Positions 244-8,947 of a stretch of 33,430 nt of DNA are shown one piece after another. The position numbers were made by a program, and so were the translations under genes. The number at the start of each line of letters is the position of its first letter. The stretch's first letter is position 1. Below the pieces are notes generated by a model. That model worked only from the letters and a program-made list of their open reading frames with translations. It was not told the origin of the DNA and did no database searches. This stretch comes from Desulfuromonadales bacterium (GTDB lineage Bacteria; Desulfobacterota; Desulfuromonadia; Desulfuromonadales; Geopsychrobacteraceae): NCBI GenBank assembly GCA_019429255.1, contig JAHYIY010000028.1, positions 1-33,430 of the forward strand. The letters are read 5' to 3'.

Positions 244-1632
244 ATGATGGAATATCCACAACTGCATTTTCACGGGGGCACCGGCGGGGTGACGGGGTCC
301 TGTTATGAACTGCGGGTTACGCAGGATTCCGGAATCCTGATTGACTGCGGGTTGTTTCAGGGGGCGGATGAGCGGCCGTTGGAGATCGATTTTCCGGTTG
401 ATCACATCAAGGCGCTGCTGGTGACCCATGTTCATATTGACCATGTCGGGCGGATTCCCTATCTGCTCGCCGCCGGGTTTGCCGGCCCCATCTATTGTTC
501 CGAGGCCTCGGCGTATTTATTGCCGCTGGTGCTGGAGGATGCGGTCAAGATCGGCTTTACCAGGGATCGGCGCCTGGTGGAGCGTTTTCTCCGGTTGATC
601 GAAGAACGTATTGTTGCCGTGCCTTTTGGTCAATGGGCACATATCGCCGACACCGATATCAGGGCGAAGTTCAAGCGCGCCGGACACATCCTCGGGTCGG
701 CGTATATTGAGTGTGATGTGGCGGGGCGGCGCTTCCTGTTTTCCGGTGATCTGGGCGCTCCCTACGCGCCACTGTTGCCGGCACCGAGAGCACCTTATCG
801 CGCCGATACGGTCGTTCTGGAAAGCACCTACGGTGATCGTCGGCATTCCAATCGTCGGCAGCGGCGCGAATTATTGCGTCAGGTGATCAAACGGGCATTT
901 GCCGATCGTGGAGCTATCCTGATACCGGCATTCAGTATCGGCAGGACCCAGGAGCTGCTGTATGAACTGGAAGATCTGATCTTTCACTGCCGTGCTGAAG
1001 AGGTTGCCGCCGGCATGGCCTGGGATGATCTGGAAATCATCGTTGATTCGCCGCTGGCCAGTCGCTTTACCGCTGCCTATCGGCAGCTCAAGGATTTATG
1101 GGATGCTGAAGCCGGTCGCAAGGTTGCAGCGGGGCGCCACCCTTTGTCGTTTGAACAGTTGATCACCATCGACTCCCATCAGGATCATCTCCATACCGTT
1201 GACTATCTGCAGCGCACCGCGCGCCCGGCCATTGTGATTGCCGGCAGCGGCATGTGTAATGGCGGTCGGATTGTCGCCTATCTCAAGGCCTTGTTGGGCG
1301 ATCCTCGCACCGATGTACTTTTTGTTGGTTACCAGGCCGATGGTACACCAGGGCGTGCTATCCAGACCTATGGTCCGCGTGGCGGCTATGTGTTTCTGGA
1401 TGGGGAGCGCTATGACATCAAGGCACACGTCCATACAATGAGCGGCTATTCTGCTCACGCTGATCAGCGTAATCTGGTTAATTTCATCAAGCGCATGCGC
1501 CATCTGCCCGATACTGTTTACCTTGTCCATGGTGATGGCGATGCCAAGGTAGCGTTGAAGACCGAGCTACAGAAGTTGTCGAAGTCGATGACTATTGTCA
1601 TTGGGCAGAAGAATTTAGAATCCACAATTTAG
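244..1632 (+). CDS. MBL-fold beta-CASP ribonuclease-like protein
   Basis: This is a 462-residue metallo-beta-lactamase protein of the beta-CASP group, the family of CPSF-73/Ysh1-like RNA nucleases. The metal site motif HVHIDH lies at residues 62-67. Later motifs fit the family: GDLGAP near 170, an ESTYGDR motif near 195, AFSIGRTQE, the SGMCNGGR loop, and SGYSAHADQ followed by VHGDGDAK near the C-terminus. The length suits a bacterial single-protein member. ATG at 244 follows a GGGGGA ribosome site; the ATG at 247 is also possible. The family processes or degrades RNA in the cytoplasm. The natural substrate here cannot be read from sequence. The next gene starts 141 bases downstream. Confidence 0.9.
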   Translation: MMEYPQLHFHGGTGGVTGSCYELRVTQDSGILIDCGLFQGADERPLEIDFPVDHIKALLVTHVHIDHVGRIPYLLAAGFAGPIYCSEASAYLLPLVLEDAVKIGFTRDRRLVERFLRLIEERIVAVPFGQWAHIADTDIRAKFKRAGHILGSAYIECDVAGRRFLFSGDLGAPYAPLLPAPRAPYRADTVVLESTYGDRRHSNRRQRRELLRQVIKRAFADRGAILIPAFSIGRTQELLYELEDLIFHCRAEEVAAGMAWDDLEIIVDSPLASRFTAAYRQLKDLWDAEAGRKVAAGRHPLSFEQLITIDSHQDHLHTVDYLQRTARPAIVIAGSGMCNGGRIVAYLKALLGDPRTDVLFVGYQADGTPGRAIQTYGPRGGYVFLDGERYDIKAHVHTMSGYSAHADQRNLVNFIKRMRHLPDTVYLVHGDGDAKVALKTELQKLSKSMTIVIGQKNLESTI

Positions 1633-1773: not shown

Positions 1774-3840
1774 ATGCTGACGGAAATTCTCCTCTGGTTA
1801 AATGTTCTCTTCTGCCCGCTAGCGGTGGTGATACTCCTTGTCCGCCGCTCTTTTAGCGTGGCGACCCTGTTGTTTATGGTGGCCCTGATCGCTTTAGCCT
1901 GGTTGGGTTTTATTGATCTCTCCTCGCTACGTTCGCCGCAACGTATCTATGGCTTGCGCAATGTTGGCATGCCGTTAGAGGTCGTTGTCGTTTTCGCCTG
2001 CTACTTTTATACAAAAACCTCCTTTCGTGACAACTCGACGATTTATCGTGGCTTTGGCTTCTGGCTTGCCATCCTGTTATTTGTCGCCCTTTTTGTCTAT
2101 GCACTGGTGACGCCATCCCTGGATTTGATCTTTTCTCCCGATTTTGCTGATGAACGGATCCTGTTTTTGACGGCATCAGGATTTCTTGTTTATCTGATAC
2201 TGATGCTGGTACTGGTGTTTGGACTGGTGCAACTTGAACGTACCCTGGCCGGGCTGCACGAGCTGCAGCGCTGGAAGGTCAAACTCGAAGTGCTCGCCAG
2301 CGGTTTGTTGATGGCGGCATTCGCCCTCTATTTCAGTCATAGTTTGTTGTTTCGTTCGATCAATGCTGATTATCTTTCCATTCGTTCAGCGGCAGTGTTA
2401 GCAGCTGTGGTACTTTTCTGCTATTCGCGGCTGGTTCGCGGCGATGGCGAGCGCCTGGCATTGTCGCGGGGGATTGCTCATCGTTCATTTGTGTTGTTGC
2501 TGGTGGGGGGCTATCTGATTCTGCTGGGCACCATCGGCGGCGGCTTACGTTACCTTAATATCGGCGATGCCAGGGTTTTTATCAATATTCTGCTGCTGGT
2601 AGGGAGTCTTGCCCTGGCGTCGGTGTTCCTGTCGGAGCGCTTGCGGCGCAAGCTGAAAGTTCTGCTACAGAAAAACTTCTATCAGAGTAAATACGATTAT
2701 CGCGAGCAGTGGGAGCGTTTCTCCCGGCATATGGTCGATGGTGGCAGTTTAGCCCATATCCAGAATGGCATTCTTGATCATTTATGTTCGATTCTGGCGT
2801 GCAAGGGTGCAGCGCTCTACTTATTTGATCATGAGAAAAAACATTATGTGCCGGCTGCTGTATTTAATCTTCCCCGCGACTGGCGGCCGTTTCTTGTTGA
2901 TGATCCGATGGTGTGCCGGTTGGCTGAAAAAGACTGGATTCTCAATCTGCATGATGACCCCCCTGATCTGCAGGGGTCGTTGCTTGAGACGCTCCATGAA
3001 TCCGACATCTTTTTGATATTGCCGCTGTTTTTTGATGAAGAGCTGGAAGGCTTTGTCTTGCTTGGGGAGCAGATCAATCCTGACGAGTTATTAAGCTTTG
3101 AAGATTATGATATGTTGCGGATGCTGGCTCGTCAGTCGATTGCAACCATTCAGGGGTTGCGTCTTGCCGATCAGCTGGTGGTGGCGCGTGAGCTGGCAGC
3201 TATCGGCAAAGTATCGACCTTTGTTCTGCACGATCTGAAAAATCAGGTTTCCGGCCTGTCGTTGCTGATGGAAAATGCCGCCGTGCATATTGAAAATCCC
3301 GAATTTCAACAGGATATGCTGGAAACCATCGGCAATACCGTAAGCAACATGAAATCCCTGATAACTCGCTTAAAAGGATTAAAGGAAAAACCACAACTGG
3401 CTGTTTCATCGGTACCATTGAGCAAAATTATTGCTGATGCGGCAGGCACGATCGGGGGAACAATCCATGTCGACGGTGATCGGGACATTTTAGTTGCCGT
3501 TGATGAAGAAGAAATTTACAAGGTTATAGTTAATATCCTGGTCAATGCCAGAGAAGCAACGTTAGATGGAAGTTCTGTTGATATCAGTTACGGTGCCGAT
3601 CAGCTACAGGCATGGATCAAGATTAAGGACGCAGGCTGTGGCATGAGTGCGGAATTTATCCGGACCCATCTTTTTAAGCCGTTTGAAACCACAAAAAAGC
3701 ATGGCTTTGGCATCGGTCTGTATCAATGTCAGCAGATCGTTACGGCTCATAATGGAGAAATTCTGGTTGCCAGTCGTGAGGGAGAAGGGACGGTGTTTAC
3801 TGTCAGGTTACCTCTGGCCTTTGATATGAGGCCGTCTTGA
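1774..3840 (+). CDS. prsK: PEP-CTERM system histidine kinase PrsK
   Basis: This is a 688-residue membrane sensor kinase. The first 300 residues hold about eight hydrophobic helices with no clear periplasmic domain. A GAF-like region follows (about 325-460), then the dimerisation/phosphorylation helix with His486 in HDLKNQ, the N-box around NAREA (about 591-595), and G-boxes DAGCGMS (from 619) and HGFGIGL (about 643-649). This architecture and the HDLKN box match PrsK, the kinase partner of PrsR in genomes with PEP-CTERM/exosortase systems. The gene ends 28 bases before prsR, so they are probably co-transcribed. The ribosome site before ATG 1774 is weak. The stimulus is unknown, and no exosortase gene is in the window. 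Confidence 0.88.
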   Translation: MLTEILLWLNVLFCPLAVVILLVRRSFSVATLLFMVALIALAWLGFIDLSSLRSPQRIYGLRNVGMPLEVVVVFACYFYTKTSFRDNSTIYRGFGFWLAILLFVALFVYALVTPSLDLIFSPDFADERILFLTASGFLVYLILMLVLVFGLVQLERTLAGLHELQRWKVKLEVLASGLLMAAFALYFSHSLLFRSINADYLSIRSAAVLAAVVLFCYSRLVRGDGERLALSRGIAHRSFVLLLVGGYLILLGTIGGGLRYLNIGDARVFINILLLVGSLALASVFLSERLRRKLKVLLQKNFYQSKYDYREQWERFSRHMVDGGSLAHIQNGILDHLCSILACKGAALYLFDHEKKHYVPAAVFNLPRDWRPFLVDDPMVCRLAEKDWILNLHDDPPDLQGSLLETLHESDIFLILPLFFDEELEGFVLLGEQINPDELLSFEDYDMLRMLARQSIATIQGLRLADQLVVARELAAIGKVSTFVLHDLKNQVSGLSLLMENAAVHIENPEFQQDMLETIGNTVSNMKSLITRLKGLKEKPQLAVSSVPLSKIIADAAGTIGGTIHVDGDRDILVAVDEEEIYKVIVNILVNAREATLDGSSVDISYGADQLQAWIKIKDAGCGMSAEFIRTHLFKPFETTKKHGFGIGLYQCQQIVTAHNGEILVASREGEGTVFTVRLPLAFDMRPS

Positions 3841-3868
3841 CGGTTTAACCAGCGAAGCGGGGATAGTA

Positions 3869-5296
3869 ATGAACGATTTGCTTATCGTAGATGACAGCCC
3901 TGAAATCCGCAAGCAGCTCAAGTGGGGATTGGCCAAAGACTACCGGATCCATCTGGCTGAAAGTGTCACAGAGGCCCTGTCTCTCTTTGACCAACACCAG
4001 CCGCGGGTGGTGTCCCTTGATTTGGGGCTGCCACCTGATGTGGATGGTGCAACCGAAGGACTACGTTGCCTTGAGGAAATACTGAAGAAAAAACCGGATA
4101 CCAAGGTTATTGTGCTGTCGGGCAATGAAGACCACAAGAATGCACTGGCTGCTGTTGATATGGGAGCCTATGATTTTTATCACAAACCCATTGACCTGAA
4201 TGAGATCCGGATTATTCTTGAGCGCGCTTTTCACCTGGCAACACTCGAAGAGGAAAATCGCCGCCTGCATTTATCCGCTCAGCAATCGGGAAACGATTAC
4301 AGCGGTATCATTGGCCAGTGTCCGGCGATGCTCGAGGTATTTGCAACGATTAAAAAAGTGGCCTCAATCAATGTGCCGGTGCTGATTTTAGGTGAAAGCG
4401 GTACCGGCAAAGAGGTTATTGCCCAGGCGATTCATCAGCGCGGCATCCGCCAGGGCAAGCCGTTTATCGCCATCAATTGCGGTGCCATACCGGAAACCCT
4501 GCTAGAGTCTGAATTGTTTGGTCATGAAAAGGGATCTTTCACCGGCGCCGGCAATCGGGTCCAAGGCAAGGTTGAATATGCGCAGGACGGCACCCTGTTT
4601 CTGGATGAAATCGGTGAGATGCCGCCTTTGCTGCAGGTGAAAATACTGCGGTTTTTACAGGAAAAAGTGATTCAACGGGTCGGTGGACGTGAAGATATTC
4701 CCCTCGATACGCGAATTATCGCGGCAACCAACACCGACATTGTCCAGGCCATCAGCTTGGGTGATTTTCGCGAAGATCTTTATTATCGCATTGGCGTTAT
4801 CACAATCAATCTGCCGCCGTTACGTGAACGGGGAGAAGATATTGAGTTGCTGGCCAACTATTTCCTGCGTCGCTTTGGTCAGGAATATGGCAAAAAAGTT
4901 CGTGGTTTCAGTTTGGCTGCCCGCAATGGACTGCTTGCCTACGATTGGCCGGGGAATGTCCGTGAACTGGAAAATAAGATCAAGCGTGCAATTATTATGA
5001 CCGAACAACCGATGATTGCTGCCGCTGACCTGGGGTTTGCCACCACTGAAGCAGATGATGCTTTATCCGGCGGCCCTGAGCTGGAAGAAAAGGCTGTGTC
5101 CCAAGAGTACCTCCTGCCGGTGCGCAGCATAACCCTGAAAGAAGCGCGACTGCAGATTGAAAAAACCCTGTTGGTACAAGCGCTGGAAGACTCTGCCGGC
5201 AATATTCAAAAGGCCGCCGACCAGTTAGCGGTGACCCGCCCAACCCTTTATGACCTGCTGAAAAAACATGGGTTGTATATATCTGGACAAGGTTAG
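3869..5296 (+). CDS. prsR: Sigma-54-dependent response regulator PrsR
   Basis: This is a 475-residue NtrC-type activator. The receiver domain (1-125) has the acidic pair Asp8/Asp9, the phosphoacceptor Asp51 and a Lys in the HKP motif. The AAA+ domain has Walker A GESGTGKE (175-182), the sigma-54 contact loop as GSFTGA (222-227, Ser for the usual Ala) and Walker B around Asp246/Glu247. A Fis-type helix-turn-helix ends the protein (about 440-470). It is expected to activate RpoN promoters after phosphorylation by PrsK; the rpoN gene lies about 12.5 kb downstream. In PEP-CTERM organisms this pair controls exported PEP-CTERM proteins and exopolysaccharide, which is known for the family and inferred here. 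Confidence 0.92.
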   Translation: MNDLLIVDDSPEIRKQLKWGLAKDYRIHLAESVTEALSLFDQHQPRVVSLDLGLPPDVDGATEGLRCLEEILKKKPDTKVIVLSGNEDHKNALAAVDMGAYDFYHKPIDLNEIRIILERAFHLATLEEENRRLHLSAQQSGNDYSGIIGQCPAMLEVFATIKKVASINVPVLILGESGTGKEVIAQAIHQRGIRQGKPFIAINCGAIPETLLESELFGHEKGSFTGAGNRVQGKVEYAQDGTLFLDEIGEMPPLLQVKILRFLQEKVIQRVGGREDIPLDTRIIAATNTDIVQAISLGDFREDLYYRIGVITINLPPLRERGEDIELLANYFLRRFGQEYGKKVRGFSLAARNGLLAYDWPGNVRELENKIKRAIIMTEQPMIAAADLGFATTEADDALSGGPELEEKAVSQEYLLPVRSITLKEARLQIEKTLLVQALEDSAGNIQKAADQLAVTRPTLYDLLKKHGLYISGQG

Positions 5297-5330: not shown

Positions 5331-6221
5331 TTACTGGGTGGTAAAGCTGTACATTTCGCTATGATAGACAGTTTCGGGAGCGCTCGTGCTATACGCATCG
5401 ACTTTCCAGTAATAGGTTGTTCCCGACCCCAGAGAGCTGGTCTGGTAACTGGTGCTGGGGCCGGTGTCAATGCGCGTCAGGGTCGCTGACGGGGAAGGGA
5501 CCCCTCCTCCCGTCGAGGCGGTTGAGGATAACGAATCCCCTGTGCCGGAACCGCCACCTTCTCCACACGCCACCAGGGCAAAGAGTGCCAGTCCCGCTAC
5601 GGCCGATCGGCCTATATAGGCAGGACGTGAACCTTCTCTACGGCTAGTCAGCCATGTTGTCAATAATAGCAATAGAGCGATGATGATGAAAAAGGTCGGC
5701 GTGGGTTCCGGTAAAAGCTTCCTGGGGAAAGGGTCGAAGGCGTAAGGGGTGCCTGCCGCTTTGTTGACCTGTTCCTTGTCGGTCCCATAATAAAGGATAT
5801 AGTTCAGATCCTGGAGAGGGCCGGCTTCCCACTCAAAAGTAACATTCCAGGGGATAACGATACTTTCTTTTTGCGGCCAGTGTAATGGCGGCATCCAGGC
5901 GGTGGCGACGATGTTGGAGAAACCGCTTTCATTTTTATCGCTGTCGTAGGCGGTGACGGTAAAGTAGTAGACAACTTTTTCTTGCAGTCCACTGATCGTC
6001 GCCATCAGGGAATTCTCAACGTCGAGAGGTGAGGGCCCTTGATCTGCTCCTGTGCCTGCGAGGGGCAGCTGCGGCGACAGCGGTTGATAGTAGACCCTGT
6101 ATCCGGCTACATCGGGGCTGGGGCTAGGTTCCCAGTAGAGGGTGACTTCCCGCGCGAAAGCGAATGAGGTAATATTGACAAAAAACAGGACGGCTGCTAT
6201 AAGTATCTGATTATATTTCAT
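5331..6221 (-). CDS. FN3 protein with internal PEP-CTERM-like segment
   Basis: This is a 296-residue exported protein. Residues 1-23 are a signal peptide with likely cleavage after AFA. An FN3 domain covers about 24-108. A second FN3 begins near 118, breaks off near 165, and resumes at about 246-296 (SGTTYYWKVDAYS, ending YSFTT). The inserted stretch contains PEPTPT (171-176), a hydrophobic helix (177-192) and arginines 194-195, which together resemble a PEP-CTERM sorting signal. It then has a second hydrophobic run (207-218) ending in a lipobox-like LVAC (Cys219) and a Gly/Ser-rich linker. ATG 6221 follows an AAGGA site; an upstream TTG (6239) would add six residues. It converges on prsR. 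Function is unknown; a surface or envelope role is inferred. Confidence 0.75.
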   Translation of the reverse strand: MKYNQILIAAVLFFVNITSFAFAREVTLYWEPSPSPDVAGYRVYYQPLSPQLPLAGTGADQGPSPLDVENSLMATISGLQEKVVYYFTVTAYDSDKNESGFSNIVATAWMPPLHWPQKESIVIPWNVTFEWEAGPLQDLNYILYYGTDKEQVNKAAGTPYAFDPFPRKLLPEPTPTFFIIIALLLLLTTWLTSRREGSRPAYIGRSAVAGLALFALVACGEGGGSGTGDSLSSTASTGGGVPSPSATLTRIDTGPSTSYQTSSLGSGTTYYWKVDAYSTSAPETVYHSEMYSFTTQ

Positions 6222-6579: not shown

Positions 6580-7440
6580 GTGGACACGGGCGGTGAAAAG
6601 GGACGACAGGGGATAATGCAACGCCTCCTGAATCGTTTGCGCAGGCGAGCTTCGGCCGGCAGCGAAGAAGAGTTGCAGCAGCTTATTGATGAATCGGAAC
6701 AACGTGGCATTATTGATGAATCGGAAGGGGACATGCTTCAGTCGATACTGGAGCTCGATGAAACCTACTTGCGCGAAATTATGGTGCCACGCACCGATAT
6801 GGTTTGTGTCGATGCTGCTGCTCCCTTGACTCAGGTGCTGGAGGCCATCCTCCAGTCAGGTCACACGCGTATCCCGATCTACAAGGGGAATATCGATAAC
6901 ATCATCGGTCTGGTGTATGCCAAGGATCTGCTCCATTACTGGGGGCAGTCACTTGAGAAGATTCCCCTGGACAGGGTCCTGCGCCAACCGTTTCTGGTGC
7001 CTGAGTCGAAGCAGGTCAGCGTGTTGCTGCGGGAGTTTCGAGAAACGCGGGTGCATATTGCCATTGTCATCGATGAATATGGTGGTACCGCCGGCCTGGT
7101 TACCATTGAGGATCTGATCGAGGAGATCGTCGGTGACATTCAGGATGAATACGATCTTGAAGAGGAGTGGCTGATCGCAGATTCAGATGGCACTGTGGTA
7201 GTCAATGGACGGCTCAATATTGAAGAGTTCGAAGAATACTTCGATGTTGAGGTTGAACGTGAAAAATTCGATACCATCGGTGGTTACGTTATTGAATTGT
7301 TCGGCCGGGTGCCGGCAGTTGGTGAGAAAGTTCGTGTTGGGCAGTTCGATATGTTGATTGAAAAAGGGGATCAGCGTTCCATTCAGCAGATCCGTATTTT
7401 TCCGCTGCGGGCAGATACGGGCAATGATGACGCGGATTGA
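6580..7440 (+). CDS. CorC/HlyC-family CBS-domain protein
   Basis: This 286-residue protein has an acidic N-terminal segment (EEELQQLIDESEQRG), a CBS pair (about 60-195, with VPRTDMV and the typical YGGTAGLVTIEDLIEEIVGDI) and a C-terminal CorC_HlyC domain (about 205-280). The family is linked to Mg/Co efflux and membrane integrity. It has no membrane domain, so it is the cytosolic CorC/YbeX type. The GTG at 6580 has an AGGGAG upstream with about 12 bases spacing. An ATG at 6616 would remove 12 residues and is the alternative. The gene overlaps lnt by 17 bases, the same ybeX-lnt pairing seen in enterobacteria. Confidence 0.85.
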   Translation: MDTGGEKGRQGIMQRLLNRLRRRASAGSEEELQQLIDESEQRGIIDESEGDMLQSILELDETYLREIMVPRTDMVCVDAAAPLTQVLEAILQSGHTRIPIYKGNIDNIIGLVYAKDLLHYWGQSLEKIPLDRVLRQPFLVPESKQVSVLLREFRETRVHIAIVIDEYGGTAGLVTIEDLIEEIVGDIQDEYDLEEEWLIADSDGTVVVNGRLNIEEFEEYFDVEVEREKFDTIGGYVIELFGRVPAVGEKVRVGQFDMLIEKGDQRSIQQIRIFPLRADTGNDDAD

Positions 7441-8947
7441 TAAAAACCTCCTGATAGCAGCTTTTTCCGGTGGGTTGTTGGCCTTGTCGTTCCCGCGTCC
7501 CGATTTTTATTGGCTCGCCTGGGTGGCATTGGTACCGCTGCTGCTGGTGATGGAAAAACGCCCCTTCGCCAGCGGTTTTTGGGCCGGGGCGGTCTTTTTT
7601 GCCGCTGTTCTCTACTGGCTCAATATTGTCATGACCACCTTTGGCGGCCTTGATCCCTTCTCCTCCCTGGTAGCCTATCTGCTGCTGGTCACCTATCTGG
7701 CGCTGTTTTTCGGCGTTGCCACCTGGCTTGCCCGGCGCGGTAAGCTGCGTCTTGGTATCCCGGTTCTGCTCAGTCTGCCGATTATCTGGGTCGCCCTTGA
7801 ATTTTTGCGCGGCTGGCTACTGACCGGCTTTCCCTGGGCGTTGATTGGTTATTCCCAGCAGAATTTCAGCCTGGCTATCCAAAGTGCTGATGTCACCGGC
7901 GTTTATGGCGTTAGCCTGATGCTGATTGCGGTCAATGCCCTGATCGCCCAAGTGATTCAGTATCCCCGGCATTCCTTTAGTCGCTGGGCGGTTGGCGGCG
8001 TGGCGCTGCTGCTGATCAGTCACTTTGGTTATGGGGTCTGGCGCTCGGGACAGTTGGCCGATGATCGTCCGCAGCAGTTACAGGTGGCGCTGATTCAGGG
8101 CAATTTTGAGCAGTCGCAAAAATGGGACCCGGCCTTGCAGCAGGAGACCATCGAGCGCTATCTGTCGCTGTCGCAGCAGGCCCTGGCACAGAGTCCTGAT
8201 CTGCTGATTTGGCCGGAAGCGGCAACCCCCTTTTTTCTCCAGGATCCTTCCGCGCTGGCCGCCCAGGTTCATGCTTTTCCGCCGCGCAGCGGCGTACCGC
8301 TGCTGGTGGGTACCCCGGCTTATCAGGTGACGGCCGCCGGCGAATATCAATACTTAAACAGTGCCTTTATGATCGGCACCGATGGTGTCCGGCACGGGCG
8401 TTCCGACAAGGTTCATCTGGTCCCCTTTGGTGAATATGTGCCGCTGGGTCGGTTGCTTTCCTTTATCGACAAACTGGTGGTGGGTGTTGGTGACTTTGTC
8501 CCGGGAGCCATTGCCCCTTTGCCGCTGGGAGAGCACTCTCTGGGAGTTCTGGTCTGTTATGAGGTGATTTTCCCCTATCTGGCGCGCCGGCATGTTCGGC
8601 AGGGGGCCGATCTGCTGGTGAATATTACCAACGATGCTTGGTTCGGGCATTCATCAGCTCCCTATCAGCACCTGGCCATGGCGCGCTTCCGGGCAATTGA
8701 ACACCGTATCTGGCTGGCGCGTTCGGCCAACACCGGCATCTCCGCCCTGATTGCCCCCAGCGGTGAGGTCGTTCTGTCCGGGCCGATCTTTGAACCCTTG
8801 CAGATGACCGGCCGGGTCGGCCTTGGCGCTGTGCCGACCTTTTATACGCGCTTTGGTGATCTGTTTGCCGTTGCCTGTCTGCTGCTGACCACCCTGCTGG
8901 CCATCGCCCAGGGGGTTGTTCCCCGCCTGCGTAAGAAAGCCGCCTGA
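7424..8947 (+). CDS. lnt: Apolipoprotein N-acyltransferase
   Basis: Lnt adds the third acyl chain to lipoproteins at the periplasmic face of the inner membrane. The 507-residue protein has an N-terminal block of hydrophobic helices (about 1-200) and a periplasmic nitrilase-fold domain. The catalytic triad is visible: Glu265 in WPEA, Lys329 in DKVHLVPFGEY and Cys378 in LVCYEVIFP, close to E. coli Glu267/Lys335/Cys387. A last helix lies near the C-terminus. The start ATGATG lies inside the 3' end of the corC-like gene, implying translational coupling; the longer upstream reading frame adds 22 non-homologous residues. Confidence 0.95.
   Translation: MMTRIDKNLLIAAFSGGLLALSFPRPDFYWLAWVALVPLLLVMEKRPFASGFWAGAVFFAAVLYWLNIVMTTFGGLDPFSSLVAYLLLVTYLALFFGVATWLARRGKLRLGIPVLLSLPIIWVALEFLRGWLLTGFPWALIGYSQQNFSLAIQSADVTGVYGVSLMLIAVNALIAQVIQYPRHSFSRWAVGGVALLLISHFGYGVWRSGQLADDRPQQLQVALIQGNFEQSQKWDPALQQETIERYLSLSQQALAQSPDLLIWPEAATPFFLQDPSALAAQVHAFPPRSGVPLLVGTPAYQVTAAGEYQYLNSAFMIGTDGVRHGRSDKVHLVPFGEYVPLGRLLSFIDKLVVGVGDFVPGAIAPLPLGEHSLGVLVCYEVIFPYLARRHVRQGADLLVNITNDAWFGHSSAPYQHLAMARFRAIEHRIWLARSANTGISALIAPSGEVVLSGPIFEPLQMTGRVGLGAVPTFYTRFGDLFAVACLLLTTLLAIAQGVVPRLRKKAA

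Follow-up and report, generated by a model that had tools for sequence, protein, structure and literature searches.

The window analysed here, a stretch of 33,430 nucleotides, contains a minus-strand open reading frame that starts with an ATG at 6221 and encodes a protein of 296 amino acids (coding positions 5334-6221). The same start methionine was found in two relatives of the same genus. The gene, its neighbours and the segments of its product are as follows (positions are those of the window, with the basis of each assignment in brackets).

1774..5296, plus strand: prsK and prsR, convergent neighbours that are kept beside orthologues (TIGR02916 and TIGR02915 over cut-off; synteny).
5331..6221, minus strand: whole gene including the stop, a 296-residue FN3 protein with an internal lipoprotein-signal-like module (open reading frame).
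6153..6221, minus strand: N-terminal signal peptide, residues about 1-23, with a predicted cleavage site (sequence; helix 2-17 in the model).
5916..6152, minus strand: first FN3 domain, residues 24-102 (Pfam PF00041, 36.1 bits, cut-off 25).
5754..5900, minus strand: second FN3 domain, first half (strands A, B, C), residues 108-156 (model, structure alignment).
5700..5753, minus strand: Pro-rich linker, residues 157-174, containing most of the non-conserved PEPTPT (171-176).
5640..5699, minus strand: helix 1, a putative stop-transfer segment, residues 175-194 (model, module statistics).
5619..5639, minus strand: short basic loop, predicted to be cytoplasmic, residues 195-201 (at least two K/R in 49/49 modules).
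5568..5618, minus strand: helix 2, residues 202-218, ending LVA, the putative h-region of an internal lipoprotein signal (model, module statistics, Cys contexts).
5565..5567, minus strand: lipobox Cys219, invariant (30/30 alignment rows, 56/56 check modules).
5487..5564, minus strand: Gly/Ser-rich tether, residues 220-245 (alignment, Cys contexts).
5334..5486, minus strand: second FN3 domain, second half (strands C', E, F, G), residues 246-296 (model, structure alignment).

The second FN3 domain is interrupted by an insert that runs, in order, through the linker, helix 1, the Lys/Arg loop, helix 2, the lipobox cysteine and a Gly run. A first-pass annotation of this DNA had described PEPTPT, a hydrophobic run, two arginines and a second run ending in LVAC, and translation of the open reading frame returned the same residue numbers. 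PEPTPT covers residues 171-176 (DNA 5694-5711) and is followed by 120 residues; the first hydrophobic run occupies 177-193, ahead of RR at 194-195, and the second (206-218) ends LVAC, with GEGGGSG directly after Cys219. The basic stretch around the inter-helix loop comprises residues about 194-205. At residues 240-295, the C-terminal part of Pfam PF16656 matched below its cut-off (28.9 bits against 30).

An AlphaFold model of the uncut chain, built with ten sequences (mean pLDDT 64.8, pTM 0.42), contained strands within residues 113-146, helices at 175-194 and 202-217, and strands within 248-295. The strands bordering the hairpin (139-146 and 248-254, named C and C' here) are the third and fourth of the second FN3 domain in the model. 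Modelled residues 110-296 aligned as one FN3 domain, best with 3pdd (Z 10.4, 84 residues, 2.0 Å), and other structure-alignment rows for this domain span residues 108-296; the alignments cover only Foldseek-ranked entries, so that absence from them excludes no family. The pLDDT was below 50 for residues 157-174 and 194-245 (linker, loop, all of helix 2 and tether). A module from Nitrospirota (L117), also modelled as an uncut chain (mean pLDDT 69.0, pTM 0.51), has the same split, with helices at 64-86 and 91-109, and its residues 1-171 aligned as one FN3 domain (3pdd, Z 10.0, 83 residues, 2.1 Å). As modelled, both halves of the second FN3 domain pack into a single FN3 fold; the insert thus sits where the first-pass annotation had put it, and the two predicted helices agree with the membrane hairpin within an extracellular fold that it had offered as one option. 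A paralogue (L029) has both FN3 halves and no hairpin, and its genome also encodes an interrupted relative (L018), which makes L029 a natural insert-free form. Fragment complementation of FN3 domains has reportedly been studied by the Koide group.

We assessed which parts of the insert are conserved. In an alignment of 18 rows, Cys219, Gly220 and Gly223 were invariant, and Pro171 and Gly222 nearly so; the linker, helix 1 and the loop contained no invariant position, and PEP was not conserved. Within the insert, the sole invariant or nearly invariant positions of a 30-row module alignment were the cysteine (30/30) and the three glycines directly after it, although six of these rows (five from Nitrospirota, and L059) were chosen by a script that looked for a lipobox and have their cysteine by selection. 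Among 49 distinct modules, helix 1 and helix 2 each reached a mean hydropathy of at least 1.6 over 15 residues in 48, and the loop between them averaged 3.8 K/R and 0.2 D/E, with at least two K/R, and more K/R than D/E, in all 49. The cysteine was left uncounted in this set because the script demanded a Cys-Gly-like motif. PEP preceded helix 1 in a single module, that of the window protein itself.

As a check, we fetched 56 modules that had not been picked for their cysteine, and it was present in every one, albeit under a search model that itself includes the Cys column. These modules came from the order-search matches listed, in which Cys had not been counted before, with two end-only matches left out. 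Two of the 56 carry in-frame stops, and two overlap with the sets above (L194 is apparently from the same contig as row L059, and L196 from that of L058 in the 49-module set). The 30 rows and the 56 check modules, 86 in all, provided 84 distinct Cys contexts. The residue before the cysteine was Ala, Gly or Ser in all 84, compared with a frequency of 28.5% over positions -15 to -4 (binomial p about 1e-46, to be read as a strong bias only, given that the sequences are related). Position -3 was Leu, Val, Ile, Met, Ala, Phe or Thr in 79 contexts, and Gly followed the cysteine in 81. A PROSITE-type lipobox pattern fits 71 contexts; the 13 misfits have Gln (6), Asn (3), Pro (2), Cys (1) or Glu (1) at most four residues before the cysteine. 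The lipobox proposed in the first-pass annotation is well founded. As expected of a bacterial lipoprotein, its cysteine follows a basic n-region and a hydrophobic stretch; however, the signal is not N-terminal, and the cysteine is residue 219. It had also been suggested that homologues lacking PEP and Arg and keeping two plain helices would indicate a simple membrane hairpin. PEP is indeed absent from the homologues, but they keep the basic loop and the cysteine, so the insert does not amount to two plain helices. Since PEP is not conserved, the 'PEP-CTERM-like' part of the earlier description is peculiar to the window sequence.

The module is widely distributed. Of 60 relative genomes, 33 had a match to the window protein, and 25 matches in 23 of them extend from residue 25 or earlier to residue 285 or later, all without an internal stop; two further genomes (G004 and G044, from fetched sequences) bring those with full-length relatives to 25. 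Queried with the 30-row module alignment, 67 of 136 genomes of the order contained the module at E up to 1e-15. Of 297 genomes drawn from the phylum, 120 matched at E up to 0.001, and most of the matches listed are short; whole modules occur among them in at least eight genomes (five from the same order and three from one genus of another family). In a contig collection, the window protein alone found no relative; the alignment query did, and the best 80 of 188 relatives were retained, with five Nitrospirota loci carrying the module among the 79 resulting loci. The plasmid collection searched returned no match.

Nine long proteins that end in the module were scanned with Pfam. Five are subtilases, one is a lactonase-like beta-propeller, and two, from Nitrospirota, have HYDIN/ASH-like domains; in the ninth (L021), Pfam recognised nothing at E up to 0.001 over the first ~300 residues. 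Judged by sequence, the insert is a conserved C-terminal module, common across the order and to other protein types, and the recurrence of the helix pair, the basic loop and Cys-Gly across the order places it beyond chance. The internal arrangement to which the first-pass annotation had drawn attention, a lipobox inside a split FN3 domain, is both unusual and recurrent.

Several further carriers were observed. L022 encodes another long protein with the module, and the genome of the window itself has a second carrier (G000:C40, L180 3274-5898), a subtilase in an 875-aa frame with a choice-of-anchor D domain and the same split-FN3 lipobox module at its end. Three loci from another family of the phylum (L184, L185, L187) have the module at the end, with Pro-Gly-Cys at the lipobox, and a front part that by eye resembles a beta-propeller of the sorbosone-dehydrogenase type. 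The window protein's relative in L060 (record Shewanella sp. MAG-BB-1) has its frame broken between the FN3 halves.

The prsK and prsR genes that had been noted next door were present together in the stretches fetched for 19 loci of full-length relatives, and PrsR was convergent with the gene, at about 2.1 kb or less, in 18 of them; in the exception (L174), it lies more than 7 kb off and is not convergent. PrsK/PrsR are linked with PEP-CTERM in the accessible part of Haft 2006 (PMC1569441). A search of 60 genomes with the exosortase model TIGR02602 gave no match in the genome of the window (G000; 99.93% complete, 61 contigs), nor in a further nine genomes among the 25 that have a full-length relative; the model was over cut-off in 15 of these 25 against 9 of the 35 without one (Fisher p 0.015). 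PF09721, searched in 13 genomes, confirmed the ten absences, that in G000 included, and matched the positive controls G001, G003 and G007. The XrtA protein of a relative, searched against the window's genome alone and with no positive control, found no match there. Hence the gene forms part of the prs neighbourhood. It is commoner where an exosortase is, yet it is kept where none was found. The window's genome likewise retains prsK/prsR though no exosortase was matched there.

As processing enzyme, an exosortase was set aside in the absence of a TIGR02602 or PF09721 match in G000. Rhombosortase (TIGR03902) was over cut-off in 0/13 genomes; it matched below threshold in 13/13 and in all 14 controls, and these matches are therefore taken as ordinary rhomboids. 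LspA was found in the window's own genome and in 12 of the 13 genomes searched, G027 being the one where it is missing. Two genes from the FN3 gene, the window carries at 7358-8947 what we take, by eye, to be a gene for apolipoprotein N-acyltransferase (Lnt). Elsewhere in the window (244-1632) lies a gene for a beta-CASP metallo-beta-lactamase-like protein whose NCBIfam matches fall below cut-off (type VII Cas14, 325.8 of 800 bits; aCPSF1, 263.9 of 580.2); a relative of it also occurs near prsK in L168, L171 and L172. Candidate sigma-54-like promoters lie 85-179 bases upstream of the FN3 gene in four distant relatives (L174, L178, L179, L181), and none as good was found upstream of the window gene.

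The signals on which Lgt and LspA act have a cytoplasmic N-terminus, and an ordinary lipoprotein signal consists of a basic n-region, a hydrophobic h-region and [L/V/I]-x-[A/G/S]-Cys. We consider it fairly probable that the insert works as an internal lipoprotein signal of a re-entrant kind, and that the protein, once cut and lipidated, has the lipidated half clasped by the split FN3 domain. The N-terminal signal peptide would export the front part of the protein. With that part already outside, the chain must re-enter before the signal can be presented, and helix 1 would halt export and return it to the cytoplasm. The basic loop together with helix 2 would then mimic the start of a new lipoprotein; the abundance of K/R and the positive-inside rule predict a cytoplasmic loop and a helix 2 oriented like a signal peptide. 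Lgt would attach the lipid to Cys219, with LspA cleaving on its N-terminal side, so that the last 78 residues (tether and strands C', E, F and G) would be lipidated at their new N-terminus. These strands would stay bound to strands A, B and C of the same domain, and the split FN3 would serve as a clasp through which the protein carries a lipid anchor at its C-terminal end. The anatomy of the insert, its conservation and the single fold of the model come from the data, and the topology, the lipidation, the cut and the later association of the two parts are predictions built on them. Returning the chain would be the task of helix 1 and the basic loop, which may explain the lack of a motif in helix 1 as against the fixed context of the cysteine. 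Our literature search found no paper on Lgt or LspA acting on a mid-protein signal, and papers on an internal, central or C-terminal lipobox name no internal signal in their accessible parts.

The hairpin would already anchor the protein, which makes the lipid look superfluous unless helix 1 is subsequently cleaved off; nothing conserved in the 30-row alignment marks a cut that would remove it. Two alternatives bear on this point. An uncut hairpin, whose two helices hold the FN3 domain to the inner membrane and whose cysteine is either lipidated without a cut or has another role, would fit the complete FN3 domain that the halves form within one modelled chain, as well as the want of a second conserved processing motif in the 30 rows. 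However, a plain hairpin needs no invariant cysteine with Ala, Gly or Ser before it and Gly after it, and we regard this reading as unlikely, if still a serious competitor. Excision on both sides, by LspA behind helix 2 and another protease before helix 1, would account for a lipid that is kept despite the hairpin, in that a two-chain lipidated FN3 domain would be free to leave the inner membrane, and helix 1 with its Arg resembles, by eye, known C-terminal sorting tags. It appears improbable, given that no motif before or in helix 1 is conserved across the 30 modules, that 10 of the 25 genomes encoding a full-length relative gave no exosortase match, and that rhombosortase was nowhere over cut-off in the 13 genomes.

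The first-pass annotation had described a PEP-CTERM-like signal, and mid-protein sorting by an exosortase with PEP as the cleavage motif (compare the name of NF033207, midcut-by-XrtH) would be consistent with the PEP, helix and RR of the window protein, the adjoining prsK/prsR, exosortase genes at a distance of about 4-14 kb in eight relatives, the higher frequency of exosortase in genomes with a full-length relative, and a weak NF033207 match of two orthologues. Nevertheless, PEP occurs in 1/49 modules, that one in a genome without an exosortase match, and NF033207 was over cut-off in 0/60 genomes; the proposal is not supported, and we hold mid-protein exosortase sorting to be very improbable. 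An assembly error, a frameshift or a recent fusion of two genes, the latter two raised at the outset, has nothing in its favour and a negligible chance of being correct: the same open arrangement occurs across the order, in full-length relatives free of internal stops and in other proteins, and these homologues refute an artefact.

If the internal lipoprotein signal operates as proposed, the wider reading would be of a portable module that gives all carrier protein types a C-terminal lipid anchor by way of the ordinary lipoprotein enzymes, with a re-inserting hairpin and, as clasp, a cut domain reassembled from two chains; in its boldest form, the hairpin would be excised on both sides and the domain left intact. 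We give this broader proposition slightly less than an even chance. The signals served by Lgt and LspA are known from protein N-termini; should these enzymes also act on a re-entrant signal within a protein, C-terminal lipid anchoring would need no dedicated sortase-like enzyme, and lipoprotein predictors restricted to N-termini would overlook a class of anchored proteins that includes proteases, beta-propellers and FN3 proteins. A domain cut by signal peptidase and still held together would be a natural split-domain clasp, usable as a tool. Overall, the arrangement suggests an unusual mode of membrane attachment, through the C-terminal end of the protein.

Several known systems resemble the module in part. 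PEP-CTERM is a C-terminal domain with fewer than 10 residues behind it in 87% of proteins, and its PEP is near-invariant, according to the accessible part of Haft 2006 (PMC1569441). The window sequence, alone among the modules, shares its PEP, helix and basic residues, and has PrsK/PrsR as neighbours; measured against that same part of the source, it differs in the length of the C-terminal remainder (120 residues), in the rarity of PEP among modules, and in a genome, G000, with no exosortase match. MYXO-CTERM, acted on by myxosortase, has an invariant cysteine before one C-terminal helix, an inverted topology and no defined lipobox, as set out in the available portion of PMC11980579; C-terminal anchoring through an invariant cysteine, predicted lipidation and an intramembrane cut are the points of likeness. 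Here, by contrast, the cysteine comes after helix 2 and is oriented as in a normal lipoprotein signal; on that account of MYXO-CTERM, the two are comparable in outcome with the topology inverted. With the ordinary lipoprotein signal of Lgt and LspA the module shares the basic n-region, hydrophobic stretch, lipobox, cysteine and Gly tether, but it lies far from the N-terminus, is preceded by a helix and is placed inside a folded domain.

Two NCBIfam families were also compared. NF033207 (midcut-by-XrtH) denotes by its name a mid-protein processing site, and the two orthologues that match it do so weakly (20.6 and 22.3 bits against a cut-off of 45). The window protein did not match it at E up to 0.01, and its own genome differs in having no detectable exosortase. 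Literature on 'midcut' concerned unrelated subjects only, and no paper was found on lipo-invert. NF058595 (invert_tail, 'lipo-invert putative C-terminal anchoring domain'; NCBIfam release 20.0, June 2026) matches residues 169-234 of the window protein, covering linker, helix, loop, helix and Cys-Gly (25.0 bits, E 1.8e-5, below the cut-off of 37). At E up to 0.01 it matches 29 of the 30 modules, and its name suits a C-terminal anchor made by a lipoprotein-like signal. It was over cut-off in one of 60 relatives (37.8 bits, genome scan) and in 0/395 genomes drawn from the phylum; a partial protein (L057), apparently from the same contig as the 37.8-bit orthologue, scored 36.1 bits. Sub-threshold matches are not specific, because at E up to 0.001 they also occur in 5/14 unrelated control genomes. 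The NF058595 model has 113 positions, too short for both FN3 halves, whereas the module described here has 175 and includes both. Given that NF058595 exists, a tail of this kind has probably been recognised before; what this analysis adds is the split FN3 domain, the order-wide spread, the presence without a detectable exosortase and the putative re-entrant mechanism.
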